A DNA stretch of 64,000 nucleotides, from positions 62,001-126,000 of the forward strand of contig JAATWA010000001.1 of NCBI GenBank assembly GCA_013361095.1, given 5' to 3'. Both the position numbers and the translations under genes were made by a program. Each line of letters starts with the position of its first letter. The stretch's first letter is position 1. The stretch comes from Pseudanabaena biceps. GTDB lineage: Bacteria; Cyanobacteriota; Cyanobacteriia; Pseudanabaenales; Pseudanabaenaceae. Under the pieces are notes generated by a model. The model ran no database searches and was not told the origin of the DNA. It saw nothing but the letters and a program-made list of their open reading frames with translations. Below are positions 24,915-29,095 of the stretch, in pieces.

Positions 24915-26210
24915 CAGGGTGGTTTCATTTTCGGAAAGGGCTATCGTGTAAAGAGTACAGAAAAGAGCAAGAGTTAGGAGAAGAAGCCAAAACAGTAAAA
25001 AATGGTCTGGTAGAAGCTAAGCAAAAAGCAAAACCAGACCATGAACTTTATAGAACAATTAAAGCAGATCCCAGACCCTCGAAAAAGTAAAGGTAAGCGC
25101 CATCCCTTGTGGCTAGTAATGTGCTTAACCTTGCTGGGAGTATTGTGTAATTATCACGGATATCGCCCATTAGCAGATTTCTGTGAGAAACATTGGCAAA
25201 CGCTACAAACAATGCTAGAGCTAGCACCAGAGAGCCAAATCCCCTCATACTCCACCTTTCGCCGTGTCATTCAAGGGGTAGAAATCGAGTCAGTAGTCAA
25301 ACTATTTAACGAGTGGTGTCGAAATAGTCATACAGGAGAATCAGGGCAATGGCTAGCGATGGACGGTAAAAGCATCAAATGTACGGTCACCAATCAGACC
25401 GATTCTAAGCAAAACTTTACCAGTACCGTGTCAGCCTTTACCCACGAAACAGGAGAAGTAATTGCCCTTGCTGTATCTGAAAATAAGCAAATCAGCGAAA
25501 TCGAAGTAGTTAAACAAGTGATTACTTCCTTACAAGGACAACCAGCCTCTTTCACAATGGATGCCTTACATTGCCAAAAAGATACGGTGAAATTAATTGC
25601 TGAGCAGGAACAGCATTATTTGATTGCCCTCAAAAATAATCAACCCAATCTGGTCAAGGCTTTGGATCACTTACATCAAAACACGGTCGCTCTTAGTTAT
25701 GCCGAAGAGTTTGACAAATCTCATGGTCGGCAAGTGCGTCGTCGTGTTTGGGTCTATCCTGCTCCACTTCACTTACGCAAACATTGGTCGTCTCTACAGT
25801 CTTTGATTTATGTCGAACGCGAGGGCTGGCGTGATGATAAGCCCTTTTTCGAGTCCCTTGGTTATATTTCTGATTTGGCTCTTAATGCGGCTCAGTTTCT
25901 GGACCCGATTCGCCTACACTGGGGTATTGAAAATCGCTTGCATTGGGTGCGTGATGTCCTTTTTCAAGAGGATACTGGCTTACGACGTGGCGGCAATGCT
26001 CCTACTATTTGGGCTATTATTCACTGCTTTATCATGACTACTGTCCGCCGTCTTGGTTATCGCACGATTCCTCAGGGGCAACGTGTTCTCGCTAATCAAG
26101 TTCACCAAGTTTTTGATATTCTCTCTTGTTCTTATTCTTACTGATTTTTCTCCCTCTAATTTTTCTGTAACTTCCTTCCTGTTTGCCTTTCCGAAAATGA
26201 AACCACCCTG
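24915..26210 (+). mobile_element. ISAs1-family insertion sequence
   Basis: 1296 bp. Perfect terminal inverted repeats CAGGGTGGTTTCATTTTCGG followed by AAAGG sit at both ends. It is flanked by direct repeats CTATTTTAGACTGGGAAG (24897-24914) and the same with one extra T (26211-26229). That is longer than the 8-10 bp usual for the family, possibly because part of the MITE arm was duplicated. The transposase frame is intact, so it may be active. Confidence 0.92.
25041..26144 (+). CDS. ISAs1-family transposase
   Basis: 367 aa, full length. It has the N-terminal DDE_Tnp_1-associated domain (QIPDPRKSKGKRHPLWLVMC, CEKHWQTLQTMLEL) and the DDE catalytic domain with Asp in WLAMDGKSIKC, Asp in SFTMDALHCQKDT, and Glu in RLHWGIENRLHWVRDVLFQE. 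The C-terminus HCFIMTTVRRLGY is typical. No frameshift or stop interrupts it. Confidence 0.96.
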   Translation: MNFIEQLKQIPDPRKSKGKRHPLWLVMCLTLLGVLCNYHGYRPLADFCEKHWQTLQTMLELAPESQIPSYSTFRRVIQGVEIESVVKLFNEWCRNSHTGESGQWLAMDGKSIKCTVTNQTDSKQNFTSTVSAFTHETGEVIALAVSENKQISEIEVVKQVITSLQGQPASFTMDALHCQKDTVKLIAEQEQHYLIALKNNQPNLVKALDHLHQNTVALSYAEEFDKSHGRQVRRRVWVYPAPLHLRKHWSSLQSLIYVEREGWRDDKPFFESLGYISDLALNAAQFLDPIRLHWGIENRLHWVRDVLFQEDTGLRRGGNAPTIWAIIHCFIMTTVRRLGYRTIPQGQRVLANQVHQVFDILSCSYSY

Positions 26211-27060: not shown

Positions 27061-27112
27061 GGTTTTAAGAAAGTGCAAAGCGCTGTAGCTATAATTGCAT
27101 TCAAAAACCTTT

Positions 27113-28210
27113 ATGAAATATCAAATCAAATCGCGATCTAGATCATCATTCTGGCAACGCCCGATCGCATTGTTACTAGGGGTCGCGATTTGTGCCTGTA
27201 TGCTGGTGTTAGCTGCCTGTGAGCCAGTTCCCGAACCAAATCAATCCACAATTGGCAATGCCAACCGTCTCAAAACTGTACTGAGTCGCGGCAAATTGGT
27301 ATGTGGCGTAAGTGGTGAATTACCGGGATTTAGCTTTGTCAATAAAGAGGGTAAATATTCGGGGCTAGATGTGGATGTTTGTCGAGCGATCGCGGCGGCT
27401 CTGTTTGATGATCCTGAAGCGGTGCAGTTTCGTAATCTCAATGCTAAGGAGCGCTTTACGGCTTTACAATCTGGCGAAATTGATATCCTTAGTCGCAATA
27501 CCACATGGACGTTGGGGCGAGATACGACTTCACGACTAGCATTTATGCCAGTGGTTTTTTATGACGGTCAAGGGGTGATGGTTCGCAAGGATAGCAATAT
27601 TAAGGCGATCGCAGATCTGAAGGGAGCAGATATTTGCGCTCAGACAGGAACTACCACTGAGCAAAATCTTGCCGATCAAATGCGGAAACTGAATCTGGAA
27701 TACAAGCCTGTAGTTTATGAAGATGTAAATGCAACTTTTGCCGCCTATCAGTCGGGGCGTTGTGTGGCGATTACAGCCGATCGCTCGGCGCTAGTTGTGC
27801 GTCGGACTAGGCTGGGCGATCCTGAAAATCATGTGGTGTTAGATTCCGTCTTTTCTAAAGAGCCGCTTGCCCCTGCGGTCAGCGATGGAGATTCTAAGTG
27901 GGCTGACATTGTGCAGTGGATTATATATGCAGCGATCGAGGCGGAGGACTTGGATATTTCTAAGGCAAATTTGACGAGTCAGTTGGCGAGCAAAAATGCA
28001 GAAGTTCGGCGTTTTTTAGGGAGCGATGGCAGCTTGGGTAAAGATATGGGCATTGCCAATGACTTTACAGCGCGAGTGATTAAGCACGTTGGTAATTATG
28101 CAGAGATTTACGATCGCAATTTGGGCAAAGATAGCTCGTTTAAGTTGCCACGCGGACAAAATGAGCTATGGAAAAATGGCGGGTTAATGTACTCCCCGCC
28201 ATTTCGATAA
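27113..28210 (+). CDS. amino-acid ABC transporter substrate-binding lipoprotein
   Basis: About 365 aa from ATG 27113 (the frame also offers TTG 27095). A hydrophobic N-terminus ends in the lipobox LVLAAC, so the protein is probably lipid-anchored outside the inner membrane. The type-3 periplasmic-binding fold resembles AapJ/BztA general amino-acid binders: RGKLVCGVSGELPGFSFVNK, SGLDVDVCRAIAAALF, WTLGRDTTSRLAFMPVVFYD and DICAQTGTTTEQNL. Permease and ATPase genes are not adjacent. The last codons (CCA TTT CGA TAA) lie inside the palindrome at 28199-28258. Confidence 0.9.
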   Translation: MKYQIKSRSRSSFWQRPIALLLGVAICACMLVLAACEPVPEPNQSTIGNANRLKTVLSRGKLVCGVSGELPGFSFVNKEGKYSGLDVDVCRAIAAALFDDPEAVQFRNLNAKERFTALQSGEIDILSRNTTWTLGRDTTSRLAFMPVVFYDGQGVMVRKDSNIKAIADLKGADICAQTGTTTEQNLADQMRKLNLEYKPVVYEDVNATFAAYQSGRCVAITADRSALVVRRTRLGDPENHVVLDSVFSKEPLAPAVSDGDSKWADIVQWIIYAAIEAEDLDISKANLTSQLASKNAEVRRFLGSDGSLGKDMGIANDFTARVIKHVGNYAEIYDRNLGKDSSFKLPRGQNELWKNGGLMYSPPFR

Positions 28211-28280
28211 AAAAGAAGTGCCGCGCAGAGCGCGGCATTTCTTTTTTTATCGAAATGGTGGCGCTTTGCGCCACCATTTC
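28199..28280. repeat. double palindrome sharing one arm, overlapping a stop codon
   Basis: The first palindrome, 28199-28258, pairs CCATTTCGATAAAAAAGAA with its complement around GCCGCGC-AGA-GCGCGGC; it has one mismatch and one A/T indel and includes the last three sense codons and stop of the upstream gene. The second, 28252-28280 (GAAATGGTGGCGC, loop TTT), reuses the right arm of the first. CCATTTC therefore appears three times in alternating orientation. Confidence 0.92.
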
Positions 28281-28285
28281 TCGTA

Positions 28286-28876
28286 TTACCAACCAAATAC
28301 TGTGGAGATCGCTGGTTGCGGTGCGATCGCTACATTGTCAGAAGCTTCAGCATCATTCACTAATTCTTCTGTGCAGAAAGTTGCAGTACTAAAGCCACCA
28401 AAACGCTTTACAGTGCTAGCCCGCATCCTGACATTAGGAGCAGGAAACCAGAAGCGCTCATAGGAACTCATGGAAGGATACTCAGTAATCAAAACGAGAG
28501 CATCTTCATTGTCAATTTCATAACGTCCGATGACGGGCATAACTTCGGCGTAGCCACGTTCTCGCAATAGCTTACCTTGGCGACCTGTTGCGTCATCTGG
28601 AACAAGGGCAAATACGGTTTCGCCAGAATGATTTTCATCGTCTTCCTTATCCCAAGCCATTGTGCCGTCCCATTTGACATAGGCTCCGCCGATCGCCGTT
28701 TTAGGTTCGACTTCATGCATTTGGCAAATTTCGATCACCTTTGGATCATCGGCATTTAGTGGATTGACATAAATTTCTGAGCCACCTTTTTCGGCGCGGC
28801 GAAAGGCTAAATGGTGAGTAGTACGTTGCGATCGCCATGTACCTGCACTTTTTTGGAAAAATTCTAAAGCATTCAT
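28286..28876 (-). CDS. cpcS: CpcS/CpeS-type phycobiliprotein lyase
   Basis: 196 aa from ATG 28876 (MNALEFFQKSAGTWRSQRTT). The frame opens earlier at 29020, but those codons lie in the MITE at 28965 and are not conserved in type. FRRAEKGGSEIYV, GGAYVKWDGTMAWDKEDD, FALVPDDATGRQGKLLRERG and YERFWFPAPNVRMRAS are CpcS blocks. The lyase attaches phycocyanobilin to a conserved Cys (often Cys84) of allophycocyanin and phycocyanin beta chains. Its subtype (S or U) is not resolved. Phycobiliprotein structural genes are not in the window. Confidence 0.9.
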   Translation of the reverse strand: MNALEFFQKSAGTWRSQRTTHHLAFRRAEKGGSEIYVNPLNADDPKVIEICQMHEVEPKTAIGGAYVKWDGTMAWDKEDDENHSGETVFALVPDDATGRQGKLLRERGYAEVMPVIGRYEIDNEDALVLITEYPSMSSYERFWFPAPNVRMRASTVKRFGGFSTATFCTEELVNDAEASDNVAIAPQPAISTVFGW

Positions 28877-28964
28877 CGGGTTGATATTAAAAAGAAGATT
28901 TAAGATTAATTTTATGATTAGCGAGGCGCAATTAAATATCAAAGTCAAAACTTGTAGAAATCTC

Positions 28965-29095
28965 CAGCAATTCTCATTATGAAACCAATTTTGGGGTTTG
29001 CAGCTTCTAAGGATCTGCAAACCCCAAAATTGGTTTTTTGAAAGCCAGCCTACGGATGGCTTTCAAAAAACCAATTTTTATAATGAGAATTGCTG
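28965..29095. mobile_element. MITE family B copy 2
   Basis: A 131-bp element with termini CAGCAATTCTCATTAT and ATAATGAGAATTGCTG enclosing two stem-loops: AACCAATTTTGGGGTTTGCAG around TTCTAAGGAT-type bases, and GAAAGCCAGCC/GGATGGCTTTC. It lies inside a larger inverted repeat (AAAGTCAAAAC at 28941-28951 and GTTTTGACTTT at 29110-29120), so it split an older palindromic repeat. No clear target duplication is left. Confidence 0.85.

Follow-up and report, generated by a model that had tools for sequence, protein, structure and literature searches.

Probable extension of a bidirectional terminator hairpin by short-range template switching at a gene end in Pseudanabaena

In the focal Pseudanabaena genome (G000), two convergent genes are separated by a bidirectional terminator hairpin that appears to have been lengthened by short-range template switching in the course of DNA synthesis, a reading to which we assign a probability of roughly 0.8. 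The genome comprises 5.57 Mb, and the window, the whole 64,000-nucleotide stretch that was analysed, lies on a 3.97-Mb contig.

The convergent genes end at 28210 (plus strand) and 28286 (minus strand) and are separated by a spacer of 75 bp that holds two hairpins. The plus-strand gene (27095–28210) encodes an amino-acid ABC transporter substrate-binding protein (Pfam SBP_bac_3, E 1.3e-18) and closes with a TAA stop at 28208–28210; its orthologues in congeners share the C-terminal end PPFR-stop or near variants. The minus-strand gene (28286–29020) encodes a CpeS-like lyase (Pfam CpeS, E 4e-72), the stop codon of which closes the spacer. Arm 1 (28199–28226, plus strand) is composed of the gene end CCATTTCGATAA and the left half of the terminator stem. 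The core of hairpin 1 (28209–28248, no assigned strand) contains an A tract, a GC stem, an AGA loop and a T tract, behind which lies arm 2, TTATCGAAATGGTGGCGC (28247–28264, plus strand). Hairpin 2 is completed by a TTT loop (28265–28267, plus strand), of the three-base length that prevails genome-wide, and by arm 3, GCGCCACCATTTC (28268–28280, plus strand), which is in gene orientation and is a perfect 13-bp complement of 28252–28264. Separately, an ORF at 25041–26144 of the window resembles an ISAs1-type transposase by eye.

A first-pass annotation of 28199–28280 had described two adjacent hairpins formed from three alternating copies, and this arrangement was confirmed, with every sequence at its reported position. 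The copies are CCATTTCG at 28199–28206 (within the gene), CGAAATGG at 28251–28258 and CCATTTC at 28274–28280, and the stems are GCCGCGC-AGA-GCGCGGC at 28220–28236 and GTGGCGC-TTT-GCGCCAC at 28258–28274. In hairpin 1, positions 28199–28226 pair with 28230–28258, the exceptions being an A6/T7 difference in length and a single G-T pair; in hairpin 2, positions 28252–28264 pair with 28268–28280 over 13 bp with no mismatch. The hairpins do share an arm, as had been claimed: 28252–28258 belongs to the right arm of the first and to the left arm of the second. The RNA folding energy of the two-hairpin region on the plus strand is -52.9 kcal/mol (z = -9.95 versus shuffled sequence).

Read on the opposite strand, arm 2 gives GCGCCACCATTTCGATAA. 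In G000 the gene now ends in CTCCCCGCCATTTCGATAA; since the alanine codon is GCG in both sister species and the next codon is CCA in one of them, GCGCCACCATTTCGATAA is likely the ancestral gene end. The G000 spacer gave an ungapped match score of 15.5 against the gene ends of several congeners and 12.5 against the reverse complement of the gene end that G000 has today, and even the latter score was reached by none of 500 shuffles. From these alignments we infer that the copying predated drift of the G000 gene end. Template switching is expected to leave derived sequence that repeats, in reverse complement, what lies directly beside it, and such copies of 15 to 18 nt were found in G000 and in a second strain, G008 (0 of 500 shuffles). 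These sequence matches lend strong support to copying of the gene end, and the last 18 bases of the substrate-binding protein gene were probably the template of the copied arms.

The core of hairpin 1 has the GC-rich stem and following T run of an intrinsic terminator and folds at -26.5 kcal/mol on the plus strand and -22.8 kcal/mol on the minus strand, the latter strand also yielding a terminator match. Its position is conserved among congeners, many of which carry counterpart hairpins at the same spot in other forms, for example AAAAAGGAGCGC-NNN-GCGCTCCTTTTTTT. Because these counterparts occupy the same place, the core is considered old and not made by snap-back. It is a putative ordinary two-way transcription terminator and probably still ends transcription from both sides. 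The serial self-copying envisaged in the first-pass annotation thus holds for arm 2, which was copied in reverse with the gene end as template, but not for hairpin 1, in which only the outer right arm is new. The suggestion that hairpin 1 is older because it is imperfect was likewise rejected, since its mismatch and indel are located at a wobble pair of the terminator stem and in a homopolymeric A/T tract and say little on age. A regulatory switch between arm 1–arm 2 and arm 2–arm 3 pairing was also considered; folding indicated none, the terminator core pairing either way.

Selection for a stronger terminator, with the arms built by single substitutions, would accord with a terminator-like core and with the enrichment of hairpins between convergent genes (74 in 12.7 kb, versus 46 in 23.1 kb of divergent spacers). 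The copied part, however, lies beyond the T tract, where it would be of no help to termination from the gene whose end was copied, and it tracks the coding sequence base by base; this explanation is accordingly given very little credence. Most likely the added arms arose as a side effect of template switching and have no function of their own.

The same spacer was compared across about 23 species, including terminators with and without the copied arm, and relationships were taken from a tree of both flanking genes. In strain UWO311 (G008), the region reads CCACCATTCCGATAA AAAAAGGAGCGC-GAA-GCGCTCCTTTTTTTATCGGAATGGTGG TAGTTT followed by the lyase gene stop, and the arm TTATCGGAATGGTGG reproduces the strain's gene end CCACCATTCCGATAA exactly in reverse complement, including a CC that differs from G000. 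Copy and template therefore agree by allele in both genomes (arm CGGAAT and gene ATTCCG in G008; arm CGAAAT and gene ATTTCG in G000), although the gene end of G007 fits the G008 arm equally well. G017, G020 and G010 are close relatives of G008 in the tree and have the hairpin without the extension, the G010 spacer being an almost clean empty site (TTTTTTTTGTTT). The ancestral state without the copy is thus represented among close relatives of G008, whereas for G000 it is represented among more distant relatives only.

G000 clusters with G007 and G011 with full support and is far from G008, with copy-less lineages between them, so at least two events must have occurred in this spacer. The first step was taken separately in G008, with that strain's allele as the template. 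Strain ULC187bin1 (G011), in the sister lineage of G000, carries ATCAGCGAAATG, a 7-nt trace (3 of 500 shuffles) without a third arm; no copied arm was found in the spacer of G007, also in that lineage, and the G011 trace may therefore be a separate event. Strains with the first step alone, which the first-pass annotation had proposed to look for, accordingly exist in the form of G008 and, as a partial trace, G011, and they show that the stage-1 state can stand alone. No compared strain was closer to G000 than about 80% nucleotide identity, and the step from arm 2 to arm 3 was consequently not caught in the act. The G017 spacer (L030) holds another hybrid array, in which hairpin 2 repeats 20 nt of the loop and right arm of hairpin 1 (CATAGCGCTCCTTTTTTTAT) with a different left arm.

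The proposed sequence of events would start from a two-way terminator hairpin between convergent genes. The growing strand would fold at this hairpin, copy itself and go back to its template, the DNA polymerase probably being on the wrong template only briefly. Comparison with the congeners shows that the right arm was lengthened by copying of the hairpin's own left side into the gene end, leaving 18 bases of the ancestral gene end reversed behind the T tract. A second switch, at or after the first, would have copied arm 2 (or the gene end directly) again and produced the second, triloop hairpin. The two rounds envisaged in the first-pass annotation fit best and are most likely, although unproven. 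It is also possible, if unlikely in our estimation, that a single replication accident with more than two (at least three) switches placed arms 2 and 3 together as a tiny inverted triplication. Arm 3 is as good a match to the inferred ancestral gene end as to the reverse of arm 2 and could thus have been copied directly from the gene, but the stage-1-only states of G008 and, in part, G011 show that the first step can occur alone.

The origin of hairpin 2 bears on the same question. Like hairpins of several congeners, it could be an older, separate terminator that serves the CpeS-type gene, in which template switching later brought only the outer arms into agreement. Two hairpins are indeed present in the focal spacer of G005, G006, G016, G017 and G020, and the GTGGCGC-NNN-GCGCCAC core is common in G000, with 58 sites at no more than one mismatch, which calls for caution; such a generic GC hairpin could also be the source of the TTT loop and of TGGCGC, the six bases that end arm 2. 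In a dispersed repeat described below, moreover, the second hairpin came first. Hairpin 2 nevertheless lacks a T tract whichever way it is read, the copied gene end runs on exactly into its GC stem (GCGCCACC), and TGGCGC, the inner hexamer, occurs in just 3 of the 156 triloop hairpins found in 464 kb of G000, so a separate origin appears rather doubtful. Under template switching from the gene end, GTGGCGC of hairpin 2 is probably for the most part copied gene end, and its GC stem would then be gene-derived too. Of the GC-rich hairpins that the first-pass annotation had placed between each pair of copies, both stems are present, but the second probably continues the copied gene end and is not a separate hairpin.

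Insertion of a mobile palindrome (REP- or MITE-like) was considered because dispersed hairpin repeats abound in G000, two families among them having a triple-arm plan. REP, REPIN and MITE elements are recognised by the same unit at many unrelated loci, whereas a genome-wide search with the 82-bp block, whose recurrence as a fixed repeat unit would have spoken against the first-pass annotation, returned a single full-length match. The arms are moreover sequence of the focal gene and, in another species, of that species' allele. An inserted element is thus highly improbable, and the fixed-unit explanation was rejected. Other triple-arm arrays, for which the first-pass annotation had proposed a genome-wide search, do exist in the genome, but most belong to the two dispersed families. 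One of these is represented at 28978–29085 of the window by a double-hairpin repeat with the plan AAACCAATTTT / AAAATTGGTTT / AAACCAATTTT, a fixed triple-arm unit with at least about 40 near full-length copies of 87–95% identity among the matches listed.

A second case of arm acquisition was identified in the same genome. The sequence at C17:510637–510736 (L075:4637–4736) is a copy of a dispersed repeat of ~104 bp with short inverted ends (TACAGC../..GCTGTA). Alone among 21 aligned copies, it has its 5-nt left end TACAG replaced by the 25 nt ACAAGTTTCTCTGTACTACATAAAG, the reverse complement of the arm that follows within this copy; the outcome is again a three-arm array. A variant base (C/G, where the other copies have T/A) is common to all three arms. 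The new arm is best described, on the basis of these alignments, as a template-switch insertion for which the ancestral form, lacking the copy, is known from paralogues. As the second hairpin existed first at this site, a triple array need not take two rounds. The array was initially taken as a unique replicate of the focal array, a view that was dropped because it belongs to a dispersed repeat in which the first arm alone is new. Stem changes among 20 repeat copies and this copy were paired in 15 instances and one-sided in 15, and because the copies share ancestry these do not represent 15 separate events.

Paired changes and inverted loops are marks of template switching (Monttinen and Loytynoja 2022; PMC8794818), and both were observed when stems of G002 were compared with those of G021 and G022 in a search with 20 kb of sequence. 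In one spacer common to G002 and G021, a 27-bp stem differs by two substitutions, each paired across the stem, and its loop is inverted (TAC to GTA); at another hairpin, G002 and G022 differ by a paired insertion of a single base, and the loop is again inverted (AAA to TTT). Gene order among G002, G021 and G022 is broken (for G021, over 200 kb of G002) despite 92–96% identity in the compared genes, which suggests frequent rearrangement in Pseudanabaena.

Perfect hairpins with arms of at least 12 bases were counted in 464 kb of G000 (the window and L056–L075). The 156 with three-base loops compare with one hairpin, of any loop length, in first-order random sequence. Loops were overwhelmingly of three bases, mostly GAA/TTC and AAA/TTT, and odd lengths were favoured. 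Long perfect triloop hairpins numbered 20–34 per 100 kb in four Pseudanabaena genomes versus 0–3 in three further genera of cyanobacteria, all with a higher G+C content. With a simple ORF model for G000, 13 listings (12 hairpins) extended 4–11 bases into a gene 3' end. We tentatively consider that short-range template switching at triloop hairpins is unusually active in Pseudanabaena, where it would keep generating, extending and rewriting hairpins behind genes, and that most long perfect hairpins are its products and not those of stepwise selection, although we hold this general claim to be somewhat less probable than its opposite. Loss of the hairpin nuclease SbcCD as a cause of the abundance was not supported; SbcC- and SbcD-like genes occur throughout the genus, the SbcD-like genes scoring above the curated cut-off and the SbcC-like matches being strong but below theirs.

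The mechanism of template switching is already known, and the focal locus is a clear new bacterial case; its interest lies in the clarity of the record, the recurrence in one spacer and the hairpin density of the genus. The birth of bacterial hairpins and terminators, and the joint change of both stem arms, have so far been argued mostly from statistics. Here, one spacer is seen with and without the copied arm in about 23 species, together with a second case in the same genome with an ancestor known from paralogues. Given its dense triloop hairpins, Pseudanabaena could serve as a natural test bed for bacterial template switching. A literature search, with most subscription journals outside its coverage, found no report of such copying in Pseudanabaena.

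As in the template switching described for RNA hairpins (PMC8794818), reverse-complement copying yields a new stem in a single step, compensatory multi-base changes keep stems paired and loops are inverted concurrently. That work concerns RNA genes (rRNA histories) and an enriched loop length of four, whereas the present case involves an intergenic terminator, a protein-gene end as template, three arms and an enriched loop length of three. Quasipalindrome template-switch mutations in Escherichia coli lacZ reporters (PMC7202029, which cites Ripley 1982) similarly match arms by intramolecular copying at an imperfect hairpin in replication. In those assays a stem that already exists is corrected at a few bases, whereas here 18 bases of new arm were added, apparently followed by a second round. 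The copy order of forward, inverted and forward is shared with inverted triplications by template switching (ODIRA, PMC4689423). In yeast these are far larger and origin-dependent, whereas 7–18 bases at a hairpin are involved here. Within G000 itself, the dispersed double-hairpin repeats (the families of 28978–29085 in the window and of C17:510615–510760) resemble the focal block in that neighbouring hairpins share arms, but they are multi-copy fixed units with their own sequence, while the focal block is single copy and gene-derived.
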